A stretch of 48,715 nucleotides of DNA, taken from positions 1 through 48,715 of the forward strand of contig JAUVAV010000026.1 in NCBI GenBank assembly GCA_030591525.1, written 5' to 3'. Of this stretch, positions 15,690 to 48,715 are shown one piece after another. The stretch comes from a candidate division FCPU426 bacterium. Lineage in GTDB: Bacteria; Oederibacteriota; JAAXVQ01; JAUVAV01. The notes under the pieces are model-generated. The model was not told the DNA's origin, did no database searches, and was given only the letters and a program-made list of their open reading frames with translations. Position 1 is the stretch's first letter. Every line of letters starts with the position of its first letter. The translations under genes were made by a program, and so were the position numbers.

Positions 15690-18600
15690 ATGTCAAATTT
15701 TAAAAGAGATTTCATGAATGGTTTAAATAATGTGGAACAGTTCGCCTCTATGGCCGAATGGTATAAGCCGCAACGCCGGGTATGGGCGAAAATCATCTCA
15801 ATCCTGGTCTCGGTAACATTTGTGTTTCCCTACATGACCTGGGCGTTTGAGGCAACGTCTTTTTCCCAACCAGCCAATCTGGTTATGTTCAACCAGCAGC
15901 CAATCAAGATTGCGCATAAGCTCGGAACTATTACGCAATCCTTCCAGGGAAGCGACCGTTTGGTAGTGCATGTGCAGGATTTGCACTGCAACTACGAGGT
16001 GCAGAACAATATTGCCAAGATGATAGATGTTCTGGCCAAAGAGCATGGTCTGGAACTGGTGGGTATAGAGGGCGCATCACTGCCCGTGAATGCCACTGCT
16101 ATCTCAACCTTTCCGGTTGCGGAAGTTAAAAAAGAGACTGCGCATTATCTGGTCAAGCAGGGCAAGCTGACCGGGGCTGAGATGTACGCGGCAATCGGCC
16201 AACATCGCATCCGGCTGGAAGGCATTGAGAGCGCTGACCTGTATGCACATAACCGGACCACAGTAATGAAATTTCTTAATTATGAAAGCCAGGGATATAT
16301 CTTTGACCTGCGCGAGACTCTGGACGAACTGAAGAGAGGCATTTACAATCCGGCGCTTACGGCTCTGGATAAGAAGAAGCAGGCCTTTCGCGAGGGAGAT
16401 CTCTCTCTGTTGAAGTACAGTGTATATTTATATGGTTTTGCGAGGCAAGGAGGCCGGGAAGAACTCTCCTTGTATCCCAACCTGAGAGCGTACGTATCCA
16501 AACGGAAAGCAATGTTTTCCGATCTGGTGGATTCGGACGGGCTGTTCAATGAGCTGGATCTGCTGGACCGTGGCCTGCGGGCCGGGATGTACACCAGCGC
16601 GGAACAGGAGAAACTGGACCTGCTTTCGCACCGTTTGGACATCATGGAAAAGCTGGTTAATATTTCCGCCTCGCCTAAGGACCTGGCTGAATACCGCGTT
16701 GCGCCCGAAGGCTTCCAAGTGCAGAAGTTCCTGGATTTCATTGCGCGGCATGACGAACTGGAAGAGTTTATCCTGGACGCGGAAGTATACAAGCTCGACC
16801 AGTACCTGGGAGAAGTAAGGAGTTTCTACCTGGTGGCGGATGATCGCAGCCGGGCGTTTGTAAAGAATATCATGACCCGCATGCAAAAGCACCAGACCAA
16901 GGTTTCCATGCTGGTAACCGGCGGGTACCACACGGATATGGTTCTGAACGAGTTGAAGCAAAAAGGCGTTTCCTATATATGCATTAAGCCGCGTCTAAGC
17001 CGGCAGGACATAGTGAATCCCTACTTCGCGCTCCTGCGCGAGCGGCGCACTCCCCTGGAAAAACTCCTGGCCAAGAACCAGAATATCCTGGGCATTCCAA
17101 TAATGTTGCATCAGACCATAGGAGATCATCGTGAGGTGATGAGTCTGAAAGAATTCTTAGCCTTGAGCCCAAAAGAGCGGTTGAATGTGATCACCATAAT
17201 TACCCTTTTAAAAGCAGGCTTACTCGCCTCGTTAAGTTCGAAGAAAACCAGTGCAGCAGTGGTTTTGGCGGAATATAAGTTAATGATAGAAAATTACGCA
17301 GCGAACAAAACCCAGGTAGTTTTGCAAACGCTGGAGAGATTAAATGATAATATCTGGGTAGCGCGTTTCACATCGGAAATAACCATGTTCGTCCACCGCT
17401 TAACAGGATTCACAGACAGTAATATAGCTGCGGAAATAGAAGTAGCCGGGGGCACGGCCTGCGTGATATCTCCACAGGCAGAAGGCTCGATGGTAAAAGC
17501 TCTTACAACCTGGTTACCCAGCCGCGCGTCCATATTTGCGGGTATTGGAAAGTGGCTGTCGCAGGCTGCAAAGTTGGCGCTGGATCGTGTTTTAGCGAAC
17601 CGGGGGTTAGGCCCACTAACCTGGCTGGTTTTGGCCGCTATATATATAGGACAAGGCGACAATCAGCAAAAAAGAGGAGATACAATACGCTCAAGCCTGC
17701 GGGCTGCATTGGGCGATGCTTCCAAAGAAATCGAGCGGCTCCTGGATTCTGATCAACTAAATACATTTGCTTACAATTTGCTGCCTGAAAATAGGCTGTA
17801 TACAGATGGAGGCGAAACACAAATAAATGGTATTTCAGAAGAGACAATAGGAACCCTGGCCGGGATGTGGCTGGGGAAAACTATATTCAACTTGGAATTT
17901 GTACTTAAAGCTGATGTTGTGAATAAACTAAACATTTCTTTGGAGCAAGCCGGTCTATTGATGCACGGCCTTATAATGCCTGCTGCCAAAAAAGCCAAAA
18001 TAGTACGTCAGGTGGGAGCAGAGAAAAGGGGATTTAGAAAAGGTTGGTTATATAAGTCTGTTCTTTATGAAAAAGTAGATTTAGCGGCGGAATCACAGCT
18101 TGCGGCATACCTGAAAGAACTGTTTTCTGATGCCGGCAAAGTCGATGAATTCGTAAATTTATTATTTCATTCAGAGCAATTACATACCGATAAAGTTAAG
18201 TACCTAATGAATATAATTCCCGAAAACAAAATAGCAAGCCTGGCGATAAGGTATTTGGAGAAAATTACAAAGAGTGAAATCTTTACGCTGGAAGTTAAAG
18301 ATGTAAAAGAAATGGGCATTACAATGGAGCAAGCCAGCATATTGATGAGTGACCTCATAATTTCTGCTGCCCAGGAAACCGTAATAGAGGTCCCTGTAAG
18401 CGAAAGTGTGGACTTGAGTGAATCCGGCGGCATTATAAGATTGTCATTCAGGCCAGATGACTCGTTAAGGTTGGAGCTAAAGCTGATTCAAAAGCTGCCA
18501 CCCATGGCAGTGGTCATAGTCGGCCTGGCCGTGTTGGCGGCCGGGAGCTTGCTGAACCTGGATGTCCCGGCAGCCGAAACTACGGCCATGTTCCTGCCGG

Positions 18601-21600
18601 CGCTGGTAATACCGGCCGGAGTGAGCGCTTTCATTATGGATAAATTTTCCCAGCTCCATATTTCCCGGATTGTAAATTCATTCCAAACCGGCCTGGCCGA
18701 CCGGATGGCTAGTGCCCACAACGGACTTCTGCTCACCCTGGCAATAGTGGGCTTGGTAGCCACACCACCAATAGATGAAATTGAAGAGAGGGAGCGGAAG
18801 ATAAAGGAAGAGCAGGCAAAACCCAGTTTACTCAAGGGAGTAAAAGGGATGTATAGTTTAATTGGTCTAGGATCTCTTGCGGCATTTTTATTTATTAATA
18901 GTTTTGGTTCGCCTATTGGAATGCCGGCTGGCCTGTTTTTAGGTCCGGCGGTCGTTTTTGGAGGTATGAGAGTAATCCTTGCAATATTTAAAGTGGATTC
19001 CATGGAAAAATTGAAAGAATATTCACTCATGGTTTTAATTGGAATAATAGTAGTAAGTATTGTTTGCATACCATTTGTTTCCCTGAGCGTATTAAGTGCC
19101 GGGGTTTTGTTTGCTATAGTTAATGTTCTGGCAAGCCTTGGAACAGTGATTTTTGTTACACCAAAGCTTAGAGCGGGGCTGCAAGAAATTTTGCTAAAAC
19201 AAAAAATCCTAGGAGATATTAACGGATTTATAGAAACTCTGAATGATACTTATGAAGTAGAATTAGCCATATTACTTTATAGCAGGTTAAATGCCGGAAT
19301 GAAACAGGAGTTTGAAAACACCGGCGAATTAGCTAAGCAACTGGGTCTTGAAGACACGGATAAAGTCAAGGTCTTACTTGAGAAAATAATCGCAGACGCT
19401 AATGAGGCCGGGATTACGCCGTCAGTGACGATTAAATCGATCACGGAAGAAGGTCCGAAGCAGGCGGAGGCCGACACGGGTGAAGGCACCAAGGCCGAGA
19501 GCATAACACCGCTGATGTTCCTACTCGGCATATTAATGGTATTGAAAGATGCTATAGTCCCAACAGAACAACCTGAACCATCCTCCGAAGCGCCTTACCA
19601 AACCGTAACCGTCGTCGGTGGTACCGGCCCTATGGCTAAAGATATTTTAGAGATGTTAAACGGAATGGGCGTGAAAAAAATAATAGTGGGTTCCTCGGTC
19701 AGAGGTGAAACCGAGGCGGACGAAAATTCCGCCCGGAAAAAAGCCGGGGAGACAGCGGAAAAGTTTGCGAAACAATGGGAAGATCAGGGCAATAAAAAAA
19801 GTAAAATAACCGGCATGACCAATCAAAAAGCCGTGGAAACAGCGGCTAAAGAGAACGGGATCGTGATGTTGGCAGTCAATGCCGAATACGTGGAAGGGGA
19901 AGTTGAGAAACTTAAAGAGGTATTAAACCAGGAAGGGCTTGTCATCATCTCCATGGCAAACTGTCTTTATGAAGTGGAAGCCAGAGAGATGCGCTGGGGA
20001 GTCAAGGAACCTTTACCCCATACTTTCTACACTCATGAAGAATCCACGGCCGAGAGATTACAAAATATATGCCCCAAGGCAACAGTGGTTACAGCTTTCC
20101 AGAATCTGCCGGCAAACTTGATTAAGGGCGATCCAAACAAGGAGATTATAGCGCAGATCGGCATATTTTCGGACTTGCCGCCTTCCTCAGTCGAAAGGGA
20201 AAAAGTATTTAATTTTATCAATGCCATGGGCAAGGGCATTAAGGCCTTTCCTGCCGGCAACCTGGAGCAGAGCCAGAATGCCGAGATAGCGACCGATTTG
20301 GCCATCCAGTCGAATCATACTCTATTTAAAAAATATCCCGCCAGTTTAGTGCTGCGCGCCATAATTGATTTACAGGCCGGTCAAGAGCCGGTTAATCTGG
20401 AAACTGTATCCCTGAGAGCCGCAACCCTGAGAAAGCAGGAACTGGAGAAACTTTTTGAGATGGAAATTACAAATGAAACCAACTGTATCGAGGCGGTTTT
20501 CCACCAGAAAGTTCCGGTTCTGGTGGAAAAGATAGAAATATTAATAGACCATAACATTCCGCTGGATACCTTTCTGCTGAAGCTTACGCTGGAGGAAATA
20601 AAACTGGCCGCGCCTAAGCTTGAAGAAAAGCTGGTTCCCGGCCAAACGGTAACAATCGGTACTTGCGGGGACGCTATTGCGCAAGTGAAGGCCAGGTTGA
20701 GCCGGATTAACCTGGCGTATAGTATGCTCAAGCAAGGCCAAAAACTTACAGCCGCTGAACTGGCGGCGAAAATGAAATGGTTTAGAGGCCGCAACTTCAC
20801 ACCGAAACTATTTGAGGATAACCTGAATATGAAACTGGCAGTCGCCGCAGAGGTGCTTGAGTATCTTACTACCGAAGCGGCGGAACAAGCCGGACGCCCG
20901 GGCGTGAAAAAGGTAAAAGTAGAAGATGCCTATTTAGCTGCCCCTTATACTTTCTATTATATGGATATACCGGGAAGGGTTGTTTTGCCTACGGGCGGCC
21001 CGCATGATGAGGCCTGGTGGAAAGAAGCAGAGCGTATAAAAGCTGTCGGAAATCCTGCTCCCTGGGGGCAGGAAGAACTTGTTCCAGTGGAAACGCAACC
21101 CGGTGTGATAGAGGTAAAAATTACCAGGGATATGCTTCCGGATTGGAGAAAAGGGAACCCCGCGGGAAGAAACCTGCGGTCTTCATTTGGAAGATACAAG
21201 GCAATAGCGTTGATTGCGGTTGCCGGCTTAAGGCATATACAGAATATTTTTAATCCGCACGATACCCGGCAAGTAAAAAATTCTGTCGAACGGATGATCA
21301 CCTCGTATGCTCTGGGACTTATGATGATGATAAAGTACAACAAAGGCGCCGGTTATCCGCTGCAGATTAATTATGGGCATGAAGTTAGATATAATAGTGT
21401 GCTATATAAGCATATTTCCACTCGTGTCTTTGCAGCCATGGGTTTTATCTCCCATATAGTGCCTGAAGACAAAGCGAACGCTATCTGGATTACTTCCACC
21501 ATGGGCAAGATACTTGGTTTTGCTCTGTCTCTATGCGGCACTGCCTCCCATGCGCTGAGCAAGATAGATGGGCTGAAAATCATCGGGTTTGAAGGAGCCC

Positions 21601-24600
21601 AGTTTTTACTCAGCGACATTAAAGCGCTGATTGATATTATGGACGCGATTTATGAAAAAATCGAAAAGGACGGCGAGTTTACTTTTGTCCTTTCAGCAAA
21701 GGATGATCCGAGAATTTCGGACCAGCTTTATTCCCATACTAACGATGGTATGGCTGTGTATAAGGAATATCAGGACGCTGCGGTTTGTGATAAGGAGATG
21801 TTAGATTGGATCAAAAGTCTGGACCCGTCAAAAATTCATATTGATTGTATGCATGGGGCGGCCTACAGCACATTGACCAATTTTTTCAAAACCGCCGGAC
21901 TTGAAGATTTGATCGGGAAGCTGGATTGGATGCATACTGAAGAAAAGCCGGATTTCGGGGGGATTGGCAAAAGCTATGAAAATCCCAAAACCGGCAAAAG
22001 AGAGCCATATGATTATGGAGCAGATGCTACCCAAGTTTATGAAAAGAAAATGCCTGATGGCAAGGTCATACAATACTTCCCAGTGTTTTGCACTGCTGAT
22101 TATCAGGAGAGATTTGCCCAAAAGCCCATAGGGGATATTGTTTTAAATACTGATATGGACCATGATCGTTTAGTAGCTAATCAAATTTTGCCTAATAATG
22201 AAGAGACCAAAGAATATTTGAAAACATTAGGAGTGCCTTATAATGTGATTAACGAAGATAAAATCCTCGCGGTTTTTCTTCCGAATAAGTTCTTTCATTT
22301 ATTGCAGGATATGAATTTTATTCGTTTGACCGAGATGATGGAACAAGGAAAAATCGCTAAAGAAAGAACTATGGTAGTGCTAAAAACCCTGGCTTCAACC
22401 CCGGCAGTTGATAAATGGGCAGCGAAGAAAAAAGCCGAAGGCTATAAAATAGAGGTGATAAATACGGCTGTGGGATTTGCCAAATTGGCAAATATTATGT
22501 ACCGGGCAGAGGCGCAAATGCGCGATCATCCTGGGGAGGATGTGATTATTGAGGATGCTTCCGGCAGTAGAGTTAATATTGGCCCAAATCCAATAATTCT
22601 GGCTGCCTGGGAGGAGAGCGGCGGGATTATTGTTGGTACTACGAAAGAAATCAAGGATATTTCTGGAAAGTCATTTCTCGCCTTAAGAGAGAAAAGCGCG
22701 ACTGAGTCAATCCTGCTTAGTCTGGCCATGATTTCAAAACTGCAAAAGGAAAAGGGAGAGCCTGATTTAAAGACATATTTAAAAGAAATATACGATGATG
22801 CTGAGGTGGATTTTCCCCTGGATTTGCGTCTGGATAACAATTTATATATTCCTGACACCACCGCGGAATCAGTTGAACAGGAAAAAGCCGGCAATGAGAG
22901 AAAAAACCGGATTTTTGGCGCGTATCTCTCAATTGTAATTGCGTATATGAATGACCAACTGGTACTTGCGGATGCGCAGAATATTTTGCGGGATATTTTC
23001 GATCAGGAATTTCAAGCCAGAAAGAAGCAGGGGACCTTAGATGATGTATTCATTAAGCGCTTTCAACAGCTGAATTTTGAGTTGCTAAAGGATATTAAAT
23101 TTACCGGCGATGGCGTGATATTTGTTTTTGAAGAAGCCGGCAAGCAATGGCATATTCTATTCAGACCCTCAGGCACTGAACCCAAGCTTAAAGCCTATGG
23201 TTTTGGAAGTGAAGCTGAACAATTAACTGATTATACCTGGGGCTTTGCATTTAATGAAAATACTGCGGGTAAGCTGCCGGAAACGTTTACTAAAAATAAA
23301 GTTCTGAAAAAGCTCTGGGGAAAAGACGGAGTAAAAGCAGTGGAAAAGGCCATGCGTATGCAAGATGCCTGGGAATTGTATGGTCAAGTAGTTGACACGG
23401 CGGATTTGGATGCGGTCGAGCTGAAGGAGCTACAAGAAAACTTATTAAAAATTGAATACACTCCGGCGGATGATCATTTGCCAATGATTAATGACCGGCT
23501 TGCGGAAATCGAATGTAAGCCAATTAGTTTGGATTTTACTTTTTTTCCGCAGGCTATGTCGCAAGAAAAAATTGTTGAATTGCTGGAAGCTGTGCCGGAA
23601 GCAGTATTTGAGCAGCTGGGACATGAAAAAGCGGAGGTTATGGCTAAACAGCAAGGGACGCCTTTTGATCTGGTGGCAGCCGGTTATGCTCGGGCTCTCA
23701 CAAAAGTCATTCCGGTGTTAATTGCGGAACTGGAGCAGGCAAAATCGGACGGAGACGAGGAACTGGTAAAAGAGACACGGGAAAAATTGGATGGCATGCT
23801 CGCGGTAGTGTCGGATACCACCCTTGCAACCTATGACCGCATGGCAGAGAAATATACGGAATTGCGGGGCGCAAAGCCCACGGGGAGAGATCTGCTTGAA
23901 CTTAGCAAATTATTAAAATATGCCAGAAAATTAAGGCCTGAAGGTTCAAAGGAAAAGGTCAGAATTCTTGATGTGGGCACAGGAACAAGAGACTTACTCT
24001 GGTTCTCGAAAATCGAGGATATCCATGTCGTGGGCATTGACATTGCGCAGAAGGTGGTCGACTCAATTCACGCAATAAATTCAAAATTGAATGTTTTGAA
24101 AATGGATATGCATAAACTTAGATTCAACGATGAGAGCTTTGACGTCATTAGATATAACACCGTCTTCCACCATACTCCTATTGTTGATTCCCGGCAAGGA
24201 GCCGACGTGGTATTACGCGAGGCGCGTCGTGTGCTCAAAAAGGACGGAGGGCTTTATATAACGGTAAAAGCGGAAACTGATGAAAGACACGGTTTTATGG
24301 GTCTGGACACTGGGGAAGGACTGGGAATACGCTATTACCAATTTTATAACCAAGAGATGCTAAAGTCTCTCTTGGTGCGGAATGGTTTTTTAGTAAAGAA
24401 AATTGAGGAATATACAGACGATAGGGGTGAAAAAAACCTGATTGCTTTTGCCAGAAAAAAAGAGGTTGCGCCGGAACTGGACAGCCAGATAAAACAAGTT
24501 GCTGAAATACTAAATGCAGCAGAAACCGATGTTCAGGCCGCCTTGGTCGGGAGCATGGATACCACCGAGGTGCTGGATAATTTCGCGGAATCAGTGGGCA

Positions 24601-29034: not shown

Positions 29035-29044
29035 GGAGAGTGAA

Positions 29045-29117: not shown

Positions 29118-29206
29118 AACCTTTATATTGACTGTTAAAACCGCGTCATAATGACACAAACACAATATTAACATTATAAAACAAACATAAATCAAACCAT
29201 CTAAAA

Positions 29207-29235: not shown

Positions 29236-29276
29236 TCAATAAATACCTTAAAATCAAATGGATTTTGGAGAAAAAG

Positions 29277-35555: not shown

Positions 35556-35625
35556 GCCGTTTCTTCCAGCCCTAAGCGGGATCATAACCGGAGCGCAGGG
35601 CCGGCGGATACGACAGTTCAATAAT

Positions 35626-35654
35626 TTGAAAATCACTGATTTCTTTGATATAAT
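35626..35654 (+). promoter_or_regulatory. sigma-70 promoter of giant gene 3
   Basis: TTGAAA (35626-35631), 17-bp spacer, TATAAT (35649-35654). It lies 234 bp from the start codon only because a 141-bp element has been inserted after it; without that the distance would be about 84 bp. 35556-35625 contains nothing else recognisable. Confidence 0.75.
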
Positions 35655-35669
35655 TATATTTGGACAATA

Positions 35670-35810
35670 GAATGGCACTAACTTAGACATTTTTTCGGCG
35701 TTCAAATAGGGGCACGGCGCGCCGTGCCCCTACTTAATACAGGGTTACATGCAAAATAATGAAGTTTTATACCGAGGTCATATAAAAACAGCTTAAGTTA
35801 GTGCCATTTC
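35670..35810. mobile_element. 141-bp MITE with 10-bp target-site duplication in leader of giant gene 3
   Basis: Terminal inverted repeats share aatggcactaactta (left 35671-35685; right end inverted at 35794-35809). The element is bordered by identical 10-bp copies of ttggacaata at 35660-35669 and 35811-35820, a target duplication. It has no ORF and carries a REP palindrome inside it (35707-35732). TIR style and a ~10-bp duplication are compatible with mobilisation by an IS4-type transposase; that is inference. Confidence 0.85.
35707..35732. repeat. perfect 26-bp REP-like palindrome nested in the MITE
   Basis: taggggcacggcg followed exactly by cgccgtgccccta. It is a member of the GTAGGGGC family and sits in the middle of the 141-bp element, so one repeat has jumped into, or been captured by, the other. 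Confidence 0.8.
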
Positions 35811-35888
35811 TTGGACAATAATAAATTGGTTGTTTTCGGCTGGAAACGAATCGAGAGAAGAATACACGAAAGGAAACCTGGAATAATA

Positions 35889-38800: not shown

Positions 38801-41800
38801 GGCTCGGAAATTGATTGAGGATTTAAAAAAGAAGGAACCGACTTTTGGAATGCTTGAGAGCGATAATAAAGATGAAATGGAAAAATTCAGGAAATTAAGC
38901 AGCGGCGGGGTGGAAGCATCGGAAAAATACTTGAGAGATCATGCGGAGAAACATTCTAAGGATATTTTAGGTAATGGGAACAAATTTACGCCGGCGCAAT
39001 ATAAAGAAGTTATGGATTTATTAAAAGGAAATGCTGATGCTTATTTTGTTGTTTTTACGAAACATCAAAACGAAAAAGGAAGGGTTAGATGGGATAAAAG
39101 ATACTGCTTCTATGATATGGAGAATAAAATCGTATTGAAGCTCCGGATGTTTAATAAAAGTAAATATAATTTTGTTACTATGCATAATCTGAAAATAGAC
39201 GATCTGCGAGAACAGTTGGGCCGGGATAGAAATTATCTCGTGGCTGAGACCGAGGAGTTTACCCGGGAGTGGGAAGAAGCAATAACTTTATCAGACGAAA
39301 AACGCCGGGGCGAAGACGTGGCTATTCAAGGCGGCTTAAAGATAATAGCTCCCTTTGTGTACGAAGATGAAATGAAGCAGGATATGATAGAAAAAATTAT
39401 TGAAGATAAAAAAGGCTGGAGGGCGCAGGCGCGCGGACTTGATCTCGATAGGATAATAAGCAAAACCGGGGAAAAAATCACAGCCAAGTTTATCTTTGAT
39501 AAAGAGGGAAGATTGCCCAACGGTGTATGGGCAGCTAATTTTACAGATGAAGATAAAAACCTGGTTATTATTATTGGCAAAGAATTGCTTGGAAATGAGG
39601 CTGAAATGGAAGAAGCGATATTTCATGAGGCCAAGGAAGCTGAGTTTATGAAGGAACGCACTAAACGGATGCAAAAAAACCAGTTGACCGATAAAGCTAT
39701 AAAGGGATTCCGGAGACGGGCGCATATCCGGGCAGCGGCGCTGCAATCTATAGTGTTTGCGGGTAAAGATGATAAAGGTAATATAAATAAACCAACCCCC
39801 CTGCATCAGAGAATACTTGAGGAAATGGTGCCGGCCCGGCTTAAAGAAATAATTGAAGAGCAGAGAGCATACCAGGAAAAAGCCATAAAAAAATATTGGG
39901 GCAAAGAAAATATTAGCCAATTTATTGAATACACAAAATATGAAGCAGTATTAAGAAAAGAAGCAAAACGGATTCTGGCTGAAAAGCAACCGGCGCAAAC
40001 CCAAGCAGTTGGCGCCGAAACCGGCCCGGGGCAACAAAGCAATCAGCCGGCGCCGTCAGAGGTAAAAGATCCAAACTATCGTATTAAAACCAGTATGGTT
40101 ATTAATCGGATAAAGGTTGATTTTAGGATGCAAAAGGGCGCAAAAATTGAGAGAGGGACATTGGCCCACTTGCGGACCGGTTTTTATGAAGTTGCGCATG
40201 CGCTGCTGAAAGAAGATGGTCTGCTCTGGGACTGGATTGAGGATGATCATTATCTTACGGCTTTGCTTACAAAATTGAATATAGATTACCATAAACATGG
40301 CGATAGAAGAATAGTGTTTAAGGTTTCTGCAAGAGGTTTGGATACTTTTGTGGCTAAATGGGTATATCGGCCCGGAGAGGCGCGGGATCTGGACGAGCAA
40401 GTGCGGGATATGTTGAAAGTATATACCCAAACCAAGAGACTTTACGGCGATGATAAAATAGTTGTGCCTTTGACCGGAGATCATACTGATCGTGTATATG
40501 TTGAGGAATACGTGGATGGTTTGGAACGGGATGAATTAGTTGATCTTTTTGTTAAACAAGAGAAGAGCTTGAGCGAGATTGTCCGGATGGAAGCCTTTGG
40601 TTTGGCCAGGGTTTGGAGAACTTTCCGGGATGAGTTTGGCAAGGGAATGATTTTTACTGATCACCACGGCCGGGACGTTTTATTCGTAAAGCATGGAGAT
40701 GGATACCTGGCAAAGTTTTTTGATTTTGAATATGTTGAAAAAGGCGTTTCTCCCGCGAAAATGATGGCTGTCTATATGGATCCAAGTCAAACGAGGACTA
40801 TGGTAAGTATCAATCCTAAAAAATATGCCAGAGATTTCTATCAAGGCATTATTGAGGCCCGGGGAGAAGAAGGACTGAGATTTCTTGAAGAAGCACTTTT
40901 TGAAAAGCCGGAATTGCCCGAGCTTAAAGAATTTATTAAAGAGTTGCAAAAAGAGATAAGTATATCCGGCAGGATTTTCCATCACCAGAAAGCCTCGGCC
41001 TCTCCCCTGGGTATGATGGCAATTACGCTCCCGTTGCTGGGAGGATACGGCCTGATGAATATTCTGGCCGCCCAGGGCGTGTTTAGTCCAACCGCTGCCA
41101 TCGGAGCGCCGGTGCTTTTTTCACTGCCCCTGGCTTTAATCCCCCTGTTGATAATCTATTCATTAGTTCTGGCCAGAGGCGCGAACCTGCCGGGAAAAGG
41201 TTTGATGCTTGCGGGAGTTCGGCTTGTAAGGTCATGGAGCCAAACCCTGGGAATATCCGGAGTGGAAAGAGCCGTTGGCCAAGAAATAGTCCGGCCGGAT
41301 AAGGTCGTAGAGAATGCCCTGACCGGATTCAGGGAAGAGGCCGGCCGTATCCGGTACAATCTACCTATTTTATTCCATCAGCTTGGGTGGCGGGATGCCT
41401 TTCCCAGGATGAGAGAGTTATGGATAATGGGGCAAGCCCTGGGCCGGCGTGTGCTAATGGGCGCGACCGCGGCGAACCGGGTGGATATATCAGACCTGGA
41501 AACATGGTTTAATAATTCTCCGGTAGTGCAGGATTTAGTGACTAGGGCCTGGAACGCGGATGCGGCTGAGCTGAGGCACAAGGGCGAGACCGGGCAATTG
41601 TCATTTCAAGCCTTGTCCCGGCCAAAAGCATTATGGGAGAAAGGGCCCGGGGCACTATTGATGGGGCAGCGCCTTACAGACCCGAAAACCGGCAAAGCAG
41701 TGGTGTCTGTGCCCGTATCAATTATGAGCGTTCTCACTCAGAACCAGGCTTGGAATCCGGAGCAATACCAACAGGCGGAAGAGCTATTTAAGCTGATGCT

Positions 41801-43409
41801 CTCGTTTCACCGTCCGGGACATGACAAGCAGATAATCAAGCATGAAAAACTTGGTTCGCAAAGACGGATAACCAGGACCCTGATGCCGGGCAGAAAAGAG
41901 ATAAACGGATTGCTGAACGCGATCCGGGCCCTGGGCAGGAGAATAAACCCGGCTGATTATTACCCAGAGCAGGAGAGTATAATCCTGACCGCAGCGGATG
42001 TGTATCGCATATACGTTTATTGCATGAAAAACCTGGGCCAAGCAAATTTTGCCCATGCGAAGCTGGTAGAGCATTTCGCCGGTCTGCTGAATAGCGGCGC
42101 AGGACTGAATTTGAGAGCGTTCTCAGCCGCGGCCAAGGAAGTGAAAGCAGAAGGAGACCCGGTTATAACAGCTATGCAGGGCCTGGTCGCGGACGTGGAA
42201 AATATAGAGGATGAGAATTTGCAAAAAGTAATAGCCAGCGGACTGATGGGAAGCTTGCTGGATTTAATCTCTTCAAAGCCTGGGGAAGTATTGACTAAAA
42301 GCAGTGTTGCGTGGGATGACAAATCCTTTACCGTAACCGGCATACCCAAAAAAACAGCCGCGATAATGCGGGACGCCCTGGCCAAAGTACGGACTAAGGG
42401 TATGACTGAGAACATGCAAAACCTGGTAGAGGCTTTAATATTTGTTCTGAACGCCCAGAGCGGGCAGGGGCTTGAGCAGGCCGCGGAGATTGAGGCCGAA
42501 GCCGGCAGTGCATTGGCTGAGGCCAAGCTGAGGCTGGAGAAGAGCATGATGCAGGCAGAGGTGCTGGGCACTGACTCATCCGGCCGCAAGGTGCGATGCG
42601 TGTGCGCGGGGCTTGAACCGGTAAAGACCGGGCTGGGTGAGATAGGCCGGCTGCTATTACTGGACAGCAACTCGAGCAGTATGAATATAGAAAAAATCAT
42701 AGCCCAGGCCATAAAGGGCGAGTACGGAGTCCTGGGATTGTTTGATAACTTCGCAATAGCGCCCCAGCCGATAGCGGCCGCGGGCATAACGAGGAATCGG
42801 TTGGCAGCCCGGCTGCTAAGCGCGGGGAAAAGCGGTTATGTGCCAATCAGCGTAAGCAGAGTCCTGGATGGCATGGTGCGCAAAATCGCGCCGGTCTACT
42901 GGGTATGGCAGAACCTGCAAGCGAGCGGCAAAGGATTGCCTGAAAATTCGCGTCTCTCTAACCTGGGTGGTATGAGTCTGGACCAGTGTTGGAAATGGCT
43001 GAACAGTGGGGATCCGAAGGCAGAGACTATGCGTGCCATGCTGCATTCCGCCGATCCCAGACACGAGGCCCTAATGGCCAGAACCTGGCTGGGCCTGATA
43101 TATCCGGCCCGCCTGGCGGCTGACCAATCTGTCCAGATTATACGTAATAAGGCAAGACAGATGCAGGAACTGAGTTTTGTATCACAATTCTTTACCAATA
43201 TGACCAGTGTGTTTACCGTGCTGATCTCGCGAGGAGATGTGAAGCTGGCTGTGCCAATAGCCATGTTCCAGGAAGTTGGCTTTAAAGGAATTATTGGAGC
43301 TGTGGCGGATAAGATGGAAAAAATGGGTATTGAGGTAAGATATGAGATTATTGACCTGTTCATGCGCCAACGCCAGCGCCTGTGGAATTCCGTAAACATA
43401 GCGGCCTAG
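35889..43409 (+). CDS. giant exported protein 3 (2506 aa), constant ends with coiled-coil and kinase-like core
   Basis: ATG 35889 is preferred; the in-frame TTG 35811 lies in the MITE target duplication and would add 26 unrelated residues. The ribosome-binding site is weak (AAAGG ~15 bases upstream). N-module: WHASGRKLW, h-region ~21-38, cleavage near A39, HVQDLHCNYE (H81) and GGFHT (H400). The core has an AT-rich coiled-coil section (~660-900), a region with FHEAKEAE (H1246, E1247, E1250) after GKELL, a Pro/Gln/Ala linker, then a kinase-like fold: VAKW (K1490), TDHHGRDVLF (D1591, H1593, D1596) and FDFE (D1612), laid out as in aminoglycoside-phosphotransferase/protein-kinase-like folds but with Asp in the usual Asn place. 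Two or three hydrophobic segments follow (~1700-1760). The C-module (~1892-2506) ends NSVNIAA. Confidence 0.8.
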   Translation: MYPQFASLSAWHASGRKLWVKSIALLVALSMVLPCLGWAFEPGVFPRPAGQVMFNKLPVEISSKLGKITHSFQAGERLVVHVQDLHCNYEVQNNIAGMIDALAQRHGLRLVAVEGASLPVNVSKLSTFPLDSVKKETAHYLMKQGKITGAELYAATGKYPVWLEGIETGELYENNWSAVMKFLNNESQGFIFDLRETLEELKPGIYNPALTELDRKKTAFREGDLSLVKYSAWLYHYASRGGEKLEDFTNLRAYLSKRKPVFAGPVEADDLYRELEILDQRLRSGMYTDAAQEKMDRLQHRLDIMEKMLNISAAPEDLAQFRAAPEEFKIQPFMDFIARHDELGEFLLDAEVSGLDTYMEQVRGFYQVADHRSRAFVSNVISRMNRRNTNIAVLVTGGFHTEIILKELKEQGISHICVKPRLEHQDIANPYFSLLRNRRTPLEKLLAQNQNILGLRPEWPMGSAAAPRDPVFFRLVDLSNYLGTLGQGFKDGLSLAGLRQFCEKTMRAYPQRNPGIAPVWAKVRKTAAGLFAPFTPGLSVVIHRAGSSVRLKITALERLVLAGQPAMLVKTGQADPEKMLAAGQLGIGGRIIDTIKNTASLFAARPARARAAVLLLVLASIGLVGVNLLVAWISGSGQAMDLPMYALFGAIVPDGIVQWFERISGIAKRKEFEEVKSDAKIVSNQVDEQISGLENVGNIKTEKLDEIYTELKKREGPLEKIEQTNADYSSLDNNDIFYTKVASKIKDIGEAKQIISKEINVTRLEKIDEEIDKINKRLEAELEYAYLLDTGIWENISKKLNAIKEKIAVLKELNITTKQNIKILEGFTETVADEAEGISKAIADFKNIPDEHLMIFVCWYLNGVYSKYDDEKRKNDEVINLAKEVSDIYENPNEDYRERIDSLVSRLRKKHKYSEVYSHALRVCSTRGFQETDNLPAYVQNAVGLIEKRILGIEHDDKLAEKALLSEEFQAARKLIEDLKKKEPTFGMLESDNKDEMEKFRKLSSGGVEASEKYLRDHAEKHSKDILGNGNKFTPAQYKEVMDLLKGNADAYFVVFTKHQNEKGRVRWDKRYCFYDMENKIVLKLRMFNKSKYNFVTMHNLKIDDLREQLGRDRNYLVAETEEFTREWEEAITLSDEKRRGEDVAIQGGLKIIAPFVYEDEMKQDMIEKIIEDKKGWRAQARGLDLDRIISKTGEKITAKFIFDKEGRLPNGVWAANFTDEDKNLVIIIGKELLGNEAEMEEAIFHEAKEAEFMKERTKRMQKNQLTDKAIKGFRRRAHIRAAALQSIVFAGKDDKGNINKPTPLHQRILEEMVPARLKEIIEEQRAYQEKAIKKYWGKENISQFIEYTKYEAVLRKEAKRILAEKQPAQTQAVGAETGPGQQSNQPAPSEVKDPNYRIKTSMVINRIKVDFRMQKGAKIERGTLAHLRTGFYEVAHALLKEDGLLWDWIEDDHYLTALLTKLNIDYHKHGDRRIVFKVSARGLDTFVAKWVYRPGEARDLDEQVRDMLKVYTQTKRLYGDDKIVVPLTGDHTDRVYVEEYVDGLERDELVDLFVKQEKSLSEIVRMEAFGLARVWRTFRDEFGKGMIFTDHHGRDVLFVKHGDGYLAKFFDFEYVEKGVSPAKMMAVYMDPSQTRTMVSINPKKYARDFYQGIIEARGEEGLRFLEEALFEKPELPELKEFIKELQKEISISGRIFHHQKASASPLGMMAITLPLLGGYGLMNILAAQGVFSPTAAIGAPVLFSLPLALIPLLIIYSLVLARGANLPGKGLMLAGVRLVRSWSQTLGISGVERAVGQEIVRPDKVVENALTGFREEAGRIRYNLPILFHQLGWRDAFPRMRELWIMGQALGRRVLMGATAANRVDISDLETWFNNSPVVQDLVTRAWNADAAELRHKGETGQLSFQALSRPKALWEKGPGALLMGQRLTDPKTGKAVVSVPVSIMSVLTQNQAWNPEQYQQAEELFKLMLSFHRPGHDKQIIKHEKLGSQRRITRTLMPGRKEINGLLNAIRALGRRINPADYYPEQESIILTAADVYRIYVYCMKNLGQANFAHAKLVEHFAGLLNSGAGLNLRAFSAAAKEVKAEGDPVITAMQGLVADVENIEDENLQKVIASGLMGSLLDLISSKPGEVLTKSSVAWDDKSFTVTGIPKKTAAIMRDALAKVRTKGMTENMQNLVEALIFVLNAQSGQGLEQAAEIEAEAGSALAEAKLRLEKSMMQAEVLGTDSSGRKVRCVCAGLEPVKTGLGEIGRLLLLDSNSSSMNIEKIIAQAIKGEYGVLGLFDNFAIAPQPIAAAGITRNRLAARLLSAGKSGYVPISVSRVLDGMVRKIAPVYWVWQNLQASGKGLPENSRLSNLGGMSLDQCWKWLNSGDPKAETMRAMLHSADPRHEALMARTWLGLIYPARLAADQSVQIIRNKARQMQELSFVSQFFTNMTSVFTVLISRGDVKLAVPIAMFQEVGFKGIIGAVADKMEKMGIEVRYEIIDLFMRQRQRLWNSVNIAA

Positions 43410-43507
43410 TAGGGGCGGGCCTCTGTTTCCGCTCATAATACACCTACCTGAATGTATCAGAACGAAACACATGAATAAATAACCAGAAAACAGAAGCATG
43501 AATAAAC

Positions 43508-43536
43508 TTGATGGATTAATTAAATTATGCTATAAT
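43508..43536 (+). promoter_or_regulatory. sigma-70 promoter of giant gene 4
   Basis: TTGATG (43508-43513), 17-bp spacer, perfect TATAAT (43531-43536), about 84 bp before the start codon. The preceding gap from 43410 begins with a half palindrome (gtaggggcgggcc) and otherwise shows nothing. Confidence 0.75.
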
Positions 43537-43619
43537 TATACATAAGGGCAATCCGAAATTGAAAAAAATTGAAGAATTCAAAGCATTTGATCAAGAGAAT
43601 TACATAAGGAGCAATTATT

Positions 43620-46600
43620 TTGACTGGATTAGATTTAATTAAAAAAATATTTCCGCCTTCTTTTTCCTGTCTAGGGAAAAGAGCTAAGGATGAGAGGATG
43701 TTTGTTTCTCTATCCGGATGGCAAGCGCCAAGCCTGAGGTCATGGACCAGGATTATTGTGCTCTCAATCTCCATAAGCTTTATTTTTCCCTTCCTGTCAT
43801 GGGCTTTTGAGCCCGGGATATTTCCCCGTCCATCCCACCAGTTAAAATTTAACCATCAGATTATAGCTATTCCGCAGAGTCTCGGTGCTATTACAAAATT
43901 TTATAAAGGCGGGAAACGCCTGGTAGTGCACGTACAGGACCTGCACTGCAATTATGAGGTACAGAATAACATTGCGAACATGATAGACAAGCTGGCCAAC
44001 CGGCAGAGCCTGAGCCTGGTTGCAGTGGAGGGAGCGTCTGAACGGATAAACGTGAGCAAACTCTCGCGTTTTCCCATAGCAGCGGTAAAGAAAAACATAG
44101 CGCATTATTTAATGCAACAGGGCAAAATAACCGGGCCGGAGTTGTACGCGGCTACGGGACAGCATGCCATACATCTGGAAGGGATTGAGAGCCAGGAGTT
44201 GTACGACCAGAACCGGAAAACCGTGATGGAGTTTCTCAATAACGAGACCCAGGGATATATTTGCGATTTACGCGACGGCCTGAATGCGCTCAAGACCGGG
44301 GTGTATAATCGCAAGCTGAGAAAATTCGATGAGAAGCAGCAGGCGTTTCGCAGGGGGGAAATGACCCTGCTTAAATACAGTGTTTTTATCCACAGCCGGG
44401 CCAGGCGCAGTAAAGAAAATCTCTCAGCCTGCCCCAACCTTTCTGCGTATGTCTCCCGGAGAGAACAAATATTGTCCCGGGCCGTGGATTCAGACGGATT
44501 GTTCAGGGAGCTGGAGCGCCTGGATCAGAGACTGCGGGCCGGGTTGTATACCACGCCCGAGCAGGAAGAAATGGACGTTCTGCAGCACCGTCTGGACGTA
44601 ATGGAGAAACTGCTCAATATCTCAGCCTCGCCCGAAGAGTTGGCCGAGTACCGGGCCAAGATGCAAGACTTCAGCATTGAACGGTTTCTGGAATACATGG
44701 CGCGGCATGATAAAAAACGCGAGTTCATGCCGGATGTTGAGATGTTCAGGCTGGATGAGAATCTGAAAAAAGTGAGGGAATTTTACCAGGTGGCTGACCA
44801 GCGCAGCCTGGTTTTTGTAAAGAACATTATAGAGCGGATGAAGCGCGAGCAGGCGGATATTGCCATGCTGGTGACCGGCGGGTATCACACGGATATTATG
44901 CTGGCGGAGTTGGAAAGAAAAGGCATATCTTATATCTGCGTAAAGCCGCGTCTGCAGCGCCAGGATATCGTGAACCCGTATTTTGCCCTTTTGCGCGGCC
45001 AACGCACACCCCTGGAAAAACTCCTGGCGCAGAACCAGAATATCCTGGGACTCGAGACAGCCTGGATTCAGGGTAAGTCCTCAGCGCCGGCTAAACCGGG
45101 TTTCTATAAATTACTGGATGTGCTTATGGTCATGGGTGCTTTAGTAGAAGGCGTGAAAACGGGTGTGTCAAGCCGGCTGAAAATACGGATGTATTATGAT
45201 GATCTGATGGAGAAGTACGTCTTCCATAATAAGAAGATAGGACCCATCTGGGCCCAAGTCCGGATGGATTCCCGATGCCTGGCCGCGCCCCTTACCACGG
45301 GATTTGCCGCAGTCATTCAGAAAATCAGGCAGGCGGAAATATCCGGCAAAACGCTGGCCAGCCTGAGGTGCGGAAAGTATATGGCCAGCATTATAAGCGA
45401 GAATCCGGCGGATATTTTAAAGGCCATTAAGAAAAGTTTTGTTTTGTCCTGGCAGCAAAGAGTTTATGCGTTGGCTCCATATTGGGGTGTGGTTGGTATG
45501 ATGATGTGGCTGGTAATTCTGGCGGCCGAAAAAATGTTGGGCCTGGAGGCCGACGCATCGATGGGCATAGTTGCAGCGGGAACGAGTTTTATAACCACAG
45601 AGCAGGGGAAAGACGTTTTGCCCGGTACGGAAAAGATAAGCGGAGACAAGCTAAACCTGCTTATGGCTATTATTCATTATTTGGATAAAAAGAATACTAA
45701 TGAAATTAGTCCGGCAGAGATAGAGGAACTTTATGACGGGGAAAAGAGTGTTAAGCCTTTAAAAGATTACCTGAGCCGAAATGAATTTATTGAATATTCT
45801 AAAACCACGAGTACCTGGCAACTGACCGAAAAATCCAGGAATATCCGCACAGCTGCCAGGATAATCGAGGTAATGATTGACAATATTGGAAAGGGAAATG
45901 AGGTTTACAGCGAATTGGTGATGAAAGCGGGCCGGAAAGACCGGGAAATTCTGGATGCGGTTATTAATGGAATAATTGAAACGATTAGTAATGAGGAAAC
46001 AGATATTTCCCGGATTATGGATCTGGAAAGTGTCCGGGAGAGGGTTAACCCGGAAAATGAAAAGGCAACCGAGTCGTTTTTAGCCAGCGTGCGGGAAGAA
46101 GCAGGCAAGGTTTTGCAGGAGCAGGCAGCTTACAAGGAAATTAAAGGAGAAACTTTGGATGGATTGCAAGAATTGGTAGAGACCATACCGGGAGAGGCAG
46201 CTCCGGAGATAGCAAAGAGTGTTGACGATACAGAATTACAGGAAACCATGCTGTCCGAAGATTTTACAATAGGATTATTAAACGCCGGCTTGCATGATTG
46301 GTATATCGCGCTAAAAAATGAATCTTCAGGCTTTATAACTAAAAAGAATGCAAAATATGAAAAGAAGAATTCGATTAATAAACTAAAATGGGGAATATTA
46401 CGCATCTTGAGCGTAGAGCGGTATAACCAGCTTCCTAAAGCATGGGAAAGTATATACATTCAAGCAGTAGAGCAGGCAGTTCCTGGAAAAAAACGCAGAA
46501 AGCAACGAAGCGCATCTGCAAAACATCCGGGCAAAAAAGAGACGTCTTTTGTGCCGGAAGATAGGGAGTACGTAGTAGCAGTGCTTGATCGGTTGGACGG

Positions 46601-48715
46601 CCAAAACGGCATTACGCTTAATGACAAGCAAAAAAAGTGGTTGGTCAGCATGATACTTGAAGGGAAGTTTGCAGACCCGGGCAAGACAGATGAAATTTTA
46701 AATACTAACAAGACGGCGATGGAAATAATCGATCATCATTTACGAAAGCCTGAATTTTCAGAGGGCGGGAAAATTCAAGATGATCAGACAAAAGAAAGAG
46801 TGCAAGGTGTACTTAACAATTTTATTAAGAATGTAATCGAACAGGCGAAGAAATTAAAATCCGCCTCGCCGACGAACCTAGCCGGCCTGAAAGCAGCAGC
46901 TGGGCACTTAACTTATGGAAATGTCCAGCAAGCCATGTTTAATGTTGTAAATAGGCAGGTGAGGGAAGCAGGCGTTGAGGATAGTTGGAAGGGGCTTTAT
47001 TACCAAATACGAATTTCCGGTCAAAGTGGAGAGATTAACATAGAAAAATTAAAAGCCTTGATAGAACTAGAGCCTGATATTAGTCAAAAAGCTCCGTGGA
47101 AAATTATTCATGAATTAATAAAAAAAGCCAGCTACTATAAAAGCTTCGACCTTGGTAAATTCAATGGTTTAATCAGAGAAAACGCGCCTGCTATAATAGA
47201 GAATGAGAATTGGAGCGAAGGAATAAATGAATATGCTGATTTAATTGAGAAAATTATCGCTTCTGAAGAGCCGGAAAAATGGATCGCAAATATTAAGGAA
47301 TTTATTCTGGCAATGGTTATAGAGGCGTGTAAATTGCAGATCCGGGAAAAAGATGAGGGTAAATCGTCGGCCGACAAGCCGGTTGTTGACAGTGGTGAAT
47401 TATCCCTAACCAATGAAGACAAGGAATTGGTGGCAGAAGTTTTTGGCTCAATTGCCGAACAGGGACTATTCAAAGAATTATTTACTACTATGAATCAGGC
47501 TGACTTGATTAATGACGCGCTATTTTACGCCATTATAGAATTCGGCCGGGATATTAACGGGATGTTCAAACAATATACGGATATAAAAAATGTTGTTAAT
47601 CCAAAAGAGTTTGCCGCATTGATCAACACTGTGCTTGGTATAGTTGCTGAAAAAAAAGCCGCTAGCGCCAAGCCGGATCACACTGCTGGTGTGGAACCTT
47701 CAAAAGAAGGTTTGCTGGACAGCTCGGGTCAGTCTGAGAAACAGGATGAAATAAGTAAAGAAGATATGGCGAAAGCATTTGCAGCGGGAGCCCAGTATGC
47801 TGCGCAGCATGTCTTGAATCTCATCCAGGCGCTTAGAGAAGCGACGTACCTGAAAACCGCCTTAAGCAAAAAGGCAGAGCATAAAAAATATCTTGGTCAA
47901 AAATTGCGCGAAATGCACGGGGATGAAGCGGCTGCGGTAGAGAAACTGGCTGATGAGATGAAAATTACGGAAAAATTGGCAAGGCAATATTTAGAGCAAA
48001 TTTACCAGGAATCTCCGGAACTTAAGCAGGAGATGGAGCAAGAACAACAATTCACCGCGGAAGTGATCTCTGCGATTAACCAAGCGCACGGGGTTAGGCA
48101 GTATGCTTTAAAGATATTAGCGGATAAGCTGAAATTTGAATTAAAAGCAGAAGGCCGCACTCCGGAGCAGGAAAAAGTGGAGGCCAGGATTGATATAATT
48201 TACGACCACGATGGAAGATTAAAGGCAAAAATGGACGAAGAACGGAGCATAGCCGGACAGGTATTGAATGCCATCTGGGACTATGCCGGATTTGAAGAAC
48301 TTATTCAGGATGATAAAGAAATAGACGAGGAAAACCGGGAGTTGTACCGGGAATCCAATTGGCCCTGGCAATTAATAAAAGATTTCGAACCTGAAAGGTT
48401 AGAGCAAATTGGGCTGCGCCAAGAGAGTTTCTCAACTCTTTTTAATGCAGTGGAGGAATGCAGCGGATATACTGAATTAATGCGGCCCAGCCCGGAAGCA
48501 GAGGTTTTGAGCAAGCTTAAAGCTCACAAAAAGCTCTATGCCGTATATCAACAGCGGATGAAAAGCGAGCAGGAATTAAATCAGCAGCTTATGGAAGCAG
48601 TTAAAAGTAACGGATATATGCCAGAGTCGGCAATAGCGGATATGGTTGCACAAGGAGGAATAAAAGAGAATATAGAAAAAAGGCTTGAAAATATTCTGCA
48701 AAGCGGGGAAGAAGA
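43620..48715 (+). CDS. giant exported protein 4, 3' truncated by window edge (at least 1698 aa)
   Basis: An open frame runs without a stop from 43620 to the last base, so the C-terminus lies outside. The start is TTG at 43620, eight bases after AAGGAG (43606-43611); no ATG fits as well. N-module: GWQAPSLRSW, h-region ~44-61, cleavage near A62, then HVQDLHCNYEVQNN (H104), VEGAS and GGYHT (H423), closing with TPLEKLLAQNQNILG. One hydrophobic segment (VVGMMMWLVILAAE, ~625-645) follows. The core from ~655 is AT-rich and almost wholly helical and charged. Residues ~677-745 (NLLMAIIHYLDKKN, EISPAEIEELY, LSRNEFIEY) resemble a winged helix; the rest has coiled-coil-like stretches and no recognisable enzyme motif. 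The reasons for family membership are strong; core function is unknown. Confidence 0.82.
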   Translation, partial: MTGLDLIKKIFPPSFSCLGKRAKDERMFVSLSGWQAPSLRSWTRIIVLSISISFIFPFLSWAFEPGIFPRPSHQLKFNHQIIAIPQSLGAITKFYKGGKRLVVHVQDLHCNYEVQNNIANMIDKLANRQSLSLVAVEGASERINVSKLSRFPIAAVKKNIAHYLMQQGKITGPELYAATGQHAIHLEGIESQELYDQNRKTVMEFLNNETQGYICDLRDGLNALKTGVYNRKLRKFDEKQQAFRRGEMTLLKYSVFIHSRARRSKENLSACPNLSAYVSRREQILSRAVDSDGLFRELERLDQRLRAGLYTTPEQEEMDVLQHRLDVMEKLLNISASPEELAEYRAKMQDFSIERFLEYMARHDKKREFMPDVEMFRLDENLKKVREFYQVADQRSLVFVKNIIERMKREQADIAMLVTGGYHTDIMLAELERKGISYICVKPRLQRQDIVNPYFALLRGQRTPLEKLLAQNQNILGLETAWIQGKSSAPAKPGFYKLLDVLMVMGALVEGVKTGVSSRLKIRMYYDDLMEKYVFHNKKIGPIWAQVRMDSRCLAAPLTTGFAAVIQKIRQAEISGKTLASLRCGKYMASIISENPADILKAIKKSFVLSWQQRVYALAPYWGVVGMMMWLVILAAEKMLGLEADASMGIVAAGTSFITTEQGKDVLPGTEKISGDKLNLLMAIIHYLDKKNTNEISPAEIEELYDGEKSVKPLKDYLSRNEFIEYSKTTSTWQLTEKSRNIRTAARIIEVMIDNIGKGNEVYSELVMKAGRKDREILDAVINGIIETISNEETDISRIMDLESVRERVNPENEKATESFLASVREEAGKVLQEQAAYKEIKGETLDGLQELVETIPGEAAPEIAKSVDDTELQETMLSEDFTIGLLNAGLHDWYIALKNESSGFITKKNAKYEKKNSINKLKWGILRILSVERYNQLPKAWESIYIQAVEQAVPGKKRRKQRSASAKHPGKKETSFVPEDREYVVAVLDRLDGQNGITLNDKQKKWLVSMILEGKFADPGKTDEILNTNKTAMEIIDHHLRKPEFSEGGKIQDDQTKERVQGVLNNFIKNVIEQAKKLKSASPTNLAGLKAAAGHLTYGNVQQAMFNVVNRQVREAGVEDSWKGLYYQIRISGQSGEINIEKLKALIELEPDISQKAPWKIIHELIKKASYYKSFDLGKFNGLIRENAPAIIENENWSEGINEYADLIEKIIASEEPEKWIANIKEFILAMVIEACKLQIREKDEGKSSADKPVVDSGELSLTNEDKELVAEVFGSIAEQGLFKELFTTMNQADLINDALFYAIIEFGRDINGMFKQYTDIKNVVNPKEFAALINTVLGIVAEKKAASAKPDHTAGVEPSKEGLLDSSGQSEKQDEISKEDMAKAFAAGAQYAAQHVLNLIQALREATYLKTALSKKAEHKKYLGQKLREMHGDEAAAVEKLADEMKITEKLARQYLEQIYQESPELKQEMEQEQQFTAEVISAINQAHGVRQYALKILADKLKFELKAEGRTPEQEKVEARIDIIYDHDGRLKAKMDEERSIAGQVLNAIWDYAGFEELIQDDKEIDEENRELYRESNWPWQLIKDFEPERLEQIGLRQESFSTLFNAVEECSGYTELMRPSPEAEVLSKLKAHKKLYAVYQQRMKSEQELNQQLMEAVKSNGYMPESAIADMVAQGGIKENIEKRLENILQSGEE

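Follow-up and report, generated by a model that had tools for sequence, protein, structure and literature searches.

A tandem of giant genes in an FCPU426 bacterium encodes a protein family with a putative TIKI/EreA/ChaN-fold head, exchangeable cores and a near-universal C-terminal tail

Four giant genes in tandem

Contig JAUVAV010000026.1 of an FCPU426 bacterium (assembly GCA_030591525.1) was analysed over its entire length of 48,715 bases, which is referred to as the window. Downstream of a tRNA-Glu gene (15180-15255) it carries four giant genes in tandem on the plus strand, named g1 to g4. The first three are complete, comprising g1 (15690..28991; 4433 amino acids (aa), 13.3 kb), g2 (29265..35555; 2096 aa, 6.3 kb) and g3 (35811..43409; 2532 aa, 7.6 kb), the last with a listed TTG start and a possible start further downstream; g4 (43620..48713) is open at the contig end, so that 1698 aa are seen of a gene of at least 5.1 kb. 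The spacers between g1/g2, g2/g3 and g3/g4 measure 273, 255 and 210 bases and contain no open reading frame (ORF) of at least 100 aa, with two minus-strand ORFs overlapping the gene ends.

An original prediction for this DNA had proposed a constant-variable-constant family, and this layout was confirmed, as the genes have shared ends and unrelated-looking cores. The anatomy suggested by our analysis consists of a signal-peptide-like leader, a TIKI/EreA/ChaN-fold domain called the N-module, a variable core, a divergent C-module in a subset of members and a near-universal tail of small residues. We give an even chance to the reading that g1-g4 represent one family of giant exported proteins, in which constant ends frame an exchangeable payload. 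In the following, G000 denotes the host genome, G001 a sister species and G002, G004 and G005 relatives from the same order; C-numbers stand for contigs or the giants on them and L-numbers for sampled loci.

The N-module and its distribution

All four consecutive giants share the N-module, which was found at 15840..17090 in g1 (from WAFE to QNIL), 29424..30671 in g2, 36000..37247 in g3 and 43800..45047 in g4 by blastp and alignment, in agreement with the coordinates and lengths predicted before. Pairwise identities reach 52-64% over ~450-590 residues, whereby the similarity extends far beyond the signal peptide, to which it might have been limited.

A profile built from the four N-modules detected 16 copies in the 2.7-Mb host genome and 8-30 matches, fragments among them, in each of seven sampled relatives of the same order, while no match was obtained in 37 other genomes of the host phylum or in 14 genomes of other phyla. 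With a 50-row profile searched over 45 host-phylum genomes, 8-33 matches were found in the same seven relatives (33 in G005), and outside the order a single match of 54 residues appeared inside a 103-codon frame in one of 37 genomes (G031). Those relatives in the order that bear names are metagenome-assembled genomes (MAGs) with the labels Firestonebacteria, FCPU426, Goldiibacteriota or just bacterium. The host is therefore not grouped with the Omnitrophota, whose giant genes the original prediction had mentioned. The module nevertheless occurs in at least 57 of 78 genomes (E <= 1e-25) sampled from the phylum of MAG G059 (locus L102), G059 included. We call this the Omnitrophota phylum, a name taken from the label of that one MAG. 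The wide spread of the module there connects the Omnitrophota giants to the lineage of the host.

Open frames carrying the N-module in the Omnitrophota phylum reach 35,113, 23,964 and 16,199 codons among the matches listed, compared to 9,482 codons for the longest member within the host's order. The module sits at the start of the frame in six of six giant frames and in all 25 further N-module frames read from this phylum, including L104, whose MAG bears just the name bacterium; the four-row profile likewise recovers all 25. A FastTree phylogeny of 111 N-modules with midpoint root united the 75 sequences from the order in one clade with a support of 0.96. Some Omnitrophota-phylum genomes also encode stand-alone N-module proteins of 406-548 codons (L242-L247), possibly the ancestral form.

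Fold and putative active site of the N-module

The N-domain comprises ~415 residues and follows the signal-peptide-like leader. An AlphaFold2 (AF2) model based on 50 aligned rows reached a mean predicted local distance difference test score (pLDDT) of 85.8 and displays the parallel beta-sheet core with flanking helices that is common to the TIKI/EreA/ChaN superfamily. Foldseek filled its top five rows with BcR135 and the erythromycin esterase EreC (lowest E 5.5e-3 at a probability of 0.98), and VIA-align gave Z scores of 9.7 for HopBA1 (173 aligned residues, 4.3 Å), 9.1 for EreC, 8.5 for BcR135 and 8.2 for ChaN. HopBA1, BcR135 and ChaN are the TIKI superfamily proteins with which RRSP aligns in the accessible part of PMC6254334. 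A Tetrahymena complex IV chain (PDB 8b6h chain DQ) scored Z 9.5 amid these proteins and 7.0 and 6.8 in other entries; all rows beyond the TIKI-fold proteins and this chain stayed at Z 6.8 or lower.

The residues D97, H99, E127, R386 and H414, all kept in g1, are invariant in 50 of 50 N-module rows, 46 of which come from loci chosen by patterns that include D97 and H99. In 26 rows found without those patterns the five residues are kept in 24-25, the remainder being gaps. The module thereby displays two histidines, two acids and a conserved basic residue, with Asp instead of Glu as the first acid. H99 and E127 as well as R386 and H414 are 28 positions apart, which matches H50-E78 and R261-H289 of EreC (PMC7979712, as far as accessible), each 28 apart, and, in the part of PMC6254334 seen, H85-E113 of BcR135 and H3902-E3930 of RRSP (28) and R4001-H4030 of RRSP (29). 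This equal spacing lends independent support to the fold assignment. A catalytic role of the conserved Cys100 was ruled out, as this residue varies in Omnitrophota-phylum rows. Judged from model and alignment, the N-module is a predicted TIKI/EreA/ChaN-fold putative hydrolase and not an anonymous constant.

C-terminal tail and C-module

The C-module similarity spans the last ~650-700 residues of the complete giants and covers 26964..28988 in g1, 33462..35552 in the most divergent copy of g2 and 41358..43406 in g3, with the respective tails NVAA, GGAA and NIAA. In blastp, g1 and g3 are 27% identical over 696 columns (E 3e-59 to 2e-61) and g1 and g2 22% (E ~1e-12 to 1e-14), whereas the match of g2 and g3 (~19-20%; E 0.001 or 0.02, depending on which of them is the query) is weak alone but linked through g1. 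An eight-member profile matched 11 of 23 complete 3' ends from two genomes at E < 1e-10, eight of them being profile seeds and the others G002 C4, G002 C49 and G000 C63 (149 columns). Four further ends matched at 1e-6 to 1e-3 and eight gave no match; nine random core segments, used as control, scored E >= 0.13. The predicted sharing of a C-module by the three complete giants therefore stands at 20-27% identity, but only as a divergent, partial constant, with the last few residues forming the more constant C-terminal element. A fold search with an AF2 model of the C-module from 10 rows (pLDDT 67, predicted template modelling score 0.44) gave a best PDB match in Foldseek of E 0.92; so weak a model carries no weight on fold novelty.

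Tails in the order consist of a basic stretch followed mostly by -AA and sometimes by -SA, -AV or similar. Counting a final AA, AV, SA, SS, SV or MA, we found the tail in 76 of 82 giant frames, compared to 9 of 125 other long ORFs and none of six stand-alone N-module proteins. In G000 and G002 combined, 21 of 23 ends carry it, two of these 23 frames having been recognised via the C-module alone, whereas among other long ORFs the share is 4 of 97 (Fisher p 2e-17); if only -AA is counted, the figures are 19 of 23 and 4 of 97. The tail was likewise present in 22 of 23 ends of order loci, in 18 of 19 ends of further loci (vs 5 of 28 other ORFs) and in 15 of 17 usable Omnitrophota-phylum ends, where the frame length, and not a read-through of the sequence, served to place each end. 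These 17 derive from 20 stretches, two of which contain N runs and one of which falls short of an end.

In four of the six misses a frameshift, a stop or masked bases interrupt the frame; the continuation ends with a tail in G002 C12, L078 and L251 and runs off the contig in G002 C4. As assembled, the frame shifts near the 3' end at 36810-36852 of G002 C12 and at 2956-2971 of C4. Among the nine tail-bearing other ORFs, eight look like pieces of neighbouring giants, either cut by the edge of a contig or stretch or continuing a broken frame.

The 25 ends inspected in G000 and G002 differ from one another in last codons, stops and the bases downstream, which places the constraint on the protein and rules out a DNA element. 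The tmRNA tags of host (AEPELALAA, L269) and relative (DEQQFALAA in G002, L268) end in -ALAA and thus share -AA with the giants. Few giant tails, however, have Leu at position -3, which leaves a plain ssrA-type LAA degron unsupported; the tail may instead be a weaker ClpX-type degron.

Core contents and core exchange

As predicted, the cores of g1-g4 show no evident mutual similarity and are not homologous along their full length. Core-core blastp gave nothing above chance (best g4/g1, 97 columns, E 0.03-0.07), and single-sequence hhalign yielded E >= 0.02 for all six pairs. Cores are nevertheless not always unique, and modules are reused in new contexts: one of ~150-220 residues from the g2 core is found again in C10 and in two G002 giants, the first of which contains it twice.

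The core of g1 comprises a region like NADPH-dependent F420 reductase (19605..20315, residues 1306-1542; TIGR01915 E 1.4e-19, 71 bits, below the cut-off of 149.8), a phosphoglucomutase/phosphomannomutase-like region (21537..23186; Pfam E 0.03, below cut-off), an S-adenosylmethionine (SAM) methyltransferase domain over the Pfam cut-off (23946..24416, residues 2753-2909) and a glucose-6-phosphate isomerase (PGI)-like region (25191..25676, residues 3168-3329), all on the plus strand. The second label follows from GTASHAL (21537), TDMDHDR (22149), EESGG (22611) and RPSGTEPK (23163), which we take to be the canonical motifs of this enzyme family. The PGI-like label relies on motifs and weak NCBIfam matches (NF003016 E 4.3e-5), as PF00342 fails to detect the domain. 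No Pfam match at E 0.001 was obtained for the cores of g2, g3 and g4.

Other giants of the host confirm the predicted presence of housekeeping-enzyme domains by Pfam matches over cut-off, namely triosephosphate isomerase (TIM) in two stretches and a 35-bit phosphoglycerate kinase (PGK) match in C78, the N-domain of pyruvate phosphate dikinase with a PEP-utiliser domain in C37, an alpha/beta hydrolase in C8, iPGM, a metalloenzyme domain and two winged-helix-type matches in C10, a nucleotidyl transferase in C91 and, barely over the cut-off, GH130 in C33. Enolase and class-II aldolase occur in C81 and an MGH1-like hydrolase in C63, whose frame shows no N-module; both frames were assigned to the family because of C-module and tail. 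Nine of 17 other core pieces of the host gave no Pfam match at E 0.001, and no toxin family reached this threshold in the host cores scanned. A G002 giant combines a glucosamine-6-phosphate isomerase family domain with HD domains, a G005 giant carries PGK, and two of six scanned Omnitrophota-phylum giants contain a Pfam match (HD; inositol monophosphatase). By these matches the glycolytic theme is seen in the host's lineage only.

Stand-alone TIM, enolase, PGK, PGI and aldolase are present in all eight order genomes, with fragments only for TIM and PGK in G004 and aldolase in G001. This rules out the giants as a replacement of missing glycolytic genes, and their glycolytic domains are extra copies. 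The enolase domain of C81 shares 30% identity with the stand-alone enolase of the host, carries insertions and keeps all 12 residues that we assume to be catalytic; the complete TIM copy in C78 keeps its Lys, His and Glu motifs at 35% identity, and the copy preceding it lacks the N-terminal part. In C78 (L106:2697-4148, minus strand) two TIM copies in tandem are followed by the start of a third and preceded by a PGK-like stretch, an order that pgk and tpi also have as stand-alone genes on contig C56. The PGK copy of the G005 giant is more eroded.

The original prediction had further proposed to test whether cores differ between close strains while the ends stay constant. We paired six host giants with G001 frames spanning the boundary behind the N-module, with residues numbered from the preceding stop, and in four of these pairs the sequence beyond residue ~635 is absent or exchanged. 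Residues 633-997 of g1 are missing in G001, with ~54 residues instead, as are residues 636-1126 of g2 and 636-1265 of C10, whereas C33 is replaced from 635 to ~1160 by ~840 residues that match no giant compared. The sister frame of C10 (L141:6677-9616) is short, stops after 980 codons and looks truncated. The pairs of C91 (79%) and C8 (41%, possibly not orthologous) are collinear throughout. A further candidate, C43 (62%), shows a break near residue 689 as well, its uncertain partner excluding it from the six pairs. Identity in the five clear pairs amounts to 79-88% for the N-terminal regions and to 40-78% for the alignable parts of the cores, and the N-module of g1 alone is 93% identical to its counterpart. 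The head is thus kept while the cores change, and the boundary between them recurs near residue 635.

Leader and paired helices

A hydrophobic leader stretch was found in 60 of 67 proteins, with on average 3.2 lysine or arginine residues (K/R) before and 0.5 after it. Among leaders of the order that passed a hydrophobicity filter, 67 of 78 contain Trp upstream of this stretch and 68 of 78 W[A/D] after it; the Trp-rich leader is not general, the Omnitrophota-phylum set showing 7 of 25 and 4 of 25, respectively. Many family members contain several transmembrane helices, and beyond the leader g3 shows two hydrophobic segments and g4 only one. Our own hydropathy scan, which is not a trained predictor, detected 93 paired helices in 67 giants, with a median loop of 6 residues; 71 of the 93 loops are free of K/R. 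The flanks of these hairpins hold 0.148 K/R and 0.063 D/E per residue, compared to 0.124 and 0.122 overall.

Proposed mechanism and rival explanations

From the anatomy, spread, fold, active-site residues, tail, core changes and enzyme content described above, all read from sequence, we infer compartment and function as follows. The leader would export the giant through Sec, and the N-domain may be an active hydrolase that processes the giant itself or acts on the envelope or a neighbour. Built through capture and duplication of enzyme domains, several of them acting on sugar phosphates, plus membrane hairpins, the core would be the payload, with its place of action at the surface of the cell or on its neighbours. 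The tail could be read by a sorting or a processing/quality-control machine that thereby checks full length, and such recognition would explain alike ends on giants with different cores.

A number of observations weigh against this proposal. With regard to the head, ChaN/Tiki (PF04187) matches only two of 50 N-module rows (best E 0.059) and is outscored by the unrelated epsilon antitoxin family PF08998 (8 of 50 rows, best E 9.7e-5), which we take as a chance match; the Foldseek E of 5.5e-3 and Z scores of 8-10, the latter by the tool's own note, are modest, and the first catalytic acid is Asp, compared to Glu in EreC and RRSP. As to the tail, its pattern was defined after viewing the sequences, L230 and L235 of the Omnitrophota phylum lack it without evident frame break, and of two G001 N-module frames with a 3' end outside the counts, L147 ends in SSV and L141 has no tail. 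The C81 frame encoding enolase and aldolase is cut by the contig edge, so that its N-module is not seen. Paired core helices carry K/R on their outer flanks and few in the short loop, and for the first helix past the N-module, K/R are more numerous on the flank towards this module in 34 of 50 proteins and less numerous there in nine. By the positive-inside rule, both patterns fit a cytosolic core better than an exported one, although with a cleaved leader the charges of the hairpins would mean insertion from outside. Glycolytic enzymes outside the cell would moreover have no obvious substrate supply.

The main rival is a membrane-attached cytosolic metabolon, which we consider possible though doubtful. 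Here the leader would serve as an anchor and the hairpins would hold the core at the membrane's inner face; the enzymes would form a second, membrane-bound set, and the -AA tail would be a ClpXP-type degron governing turnover. Such an arrangement is consistent with the K/R-flanked hairpins and their loops, mostly free of K/R, with the catalytic motifs intact in enolase and one TIM copy and with the recurrence of sugar-phosphate enzymes, seen in the glucosamine-6-phosphate isomerase family domain of the G002 giant and the inositol monophosphatase of one in six Omnitrophota-phylum giants. ClpXP reads tmRNA tags, and since those of host and relative end in -ALAA, the giants' ends could be read by the same protease, but few tails are LAA. 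With K/R before and few after its hydrophobic stretch and, within the order, a terminal WA, the leader displays the features of a signal peptide, and these would place the N-module outside; with canonical stand-alone TIM, enolase, PGK, PGI and aldolase at hand a second set is not needed.

Accretion, in which only the ends are under selection and the cores grow via illegitimate recombination that captures gene pieces, would turn the enzyme domains mostly into relics or structural beads. Partial, duplicated or insertion-laden domains would be expected from it and are seen in the truncated and full TIM of C78, the enolase insertions and a PGK copy without N-terminal part; the lower identity of orthologous cores compared to the N-terminal regions, the lost segments, enzyme copies that vary from genome to genome and the nine of 17 host core pieces without Pfam match point in the same direction. 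The enolase and the complete TIM, however, keep the catalytic residues named above at 30% and 35% identity, which neutral decay would not preserve, and we regard accretion as unlikely.

That the giants are polymorphic-toxin-like weapons, their constant ends serving in trafficking and their swapped parts being effectors passed into prey or rivals, seems improbable to us: the constant-variable-constant layout with its core changes, the TIKI fold, found also in effectors and toxins, hairpins that could insert into a target membrane and the predation proposed for Omnitrophota giants (PMC10066038 and PMC12419801, both seen in part) would suit it, but the variable part is central and not a C-terminal tip, the spacers between the tandem giants hold no ORF of at least 100 aa and the Pfam scan of host cores revealed no toxin family at E 0.001.

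Extending the export reading of g1-g4 beyond the host, we tentatively envisage many giants of Omnitrophota and of the separate host lineage as one superfamily, composed of a signal peptide, a TIKI-type hydrolase for maturation of the protein or of its target, a swappable payload of thousands of residues and a C-terminal address of a few residues with a dedicated reader. Its payload would be working sugar-metabolism enzymes delivered outside or into another cell. This wider proposal is a doubtful one, and we know of no parallel for a metabolic effector system delivering such enzymes.

Relation to known systems

For the giant ORFs of Omnitrophota, exemplified by the 39,678-aa protein of Velamenicoccus archaeovorus, poor conservation and few annotated domains have been noted (accessible part of PMC10066038). 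The family resembles them in giant size, several transmembrane helices and few recognisable domains, and giants of the Omnitrophota phylum themselves carry the same N-module and the same kind of tail. It differs in its host from another lineage and in window genes under 20 kb, which stay below the ORF size of >20 kb used there. Neither an N-module of TIKI fold common to the giants nor a C-terminal tail is mentioned in the part of PMC10066038 available to us, and the V. archaeovorus protein is compared by description.

Some gigantic Omnitrophota proteins containing lipocone domains join transmembrane segments with diverse enzymes, as does our family, and are read as predation tools; by their description in the part of PMC12419801 seen, neither shared ends nor glycolytic enzymes are mentioned. 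With the TIKI/EreA/ChaN hydrolases EreC, BcR135, HopBA1, ChaN and the MARTX RRSP domain, the N-module shares the predicted fold and the catalytic constellation at the same spacing, whereas it is only remotely similar in sequence, carries Asp for the first Glu and forms the first domain of giants.

Polymorphic toxins combine constant parts with an exchangeable part and occur as tandem paralogues. All three features recur in the family. Unlike in those toxins, the variable part is central and followed by C-module and tail, no immunity-gene ORF of at least 100 aa lies in the spacers, and the recognisable payload consists of sugar-metabolism enzymes instead of toxins.

In line with the suggestion that the shared ends were undescribed, the literature searched contained no report of a shared TIKI-fold head, a near-universal tail, glycolytic giants or a link to a second lineage; coverage of the sources was partial and papers on giant genes may contain some of this. 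Giant Omnitrophota proteins are already known, and what appears to be new is the generality of the shared head and tail across two lineages, which we see as an unusual step up. Poorly annotated giants gain a handle from the common first domain, whose putative active site is mapped, and from the common last residues: a profile to detect members in whichever genome is searched, catalytic residues that can be mutated and a C-terminal signal whose putative reader can be looked for. The extra copies of enolase, TIM, PGK and aldolase raise the testable question of what purpose giant-borne sugar enzymes serve.

Neighbouring genes

Upstream of the giants, the window encodes between 4047 and 9344 a Na/Pi cotransporter with PhoU domain, two PilZ proteins, a class-IV aminotransferase and a PIN-PhoH protein. 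A short, lysine-rich simple repeat lies at 610-657, at the end of the first ORF.

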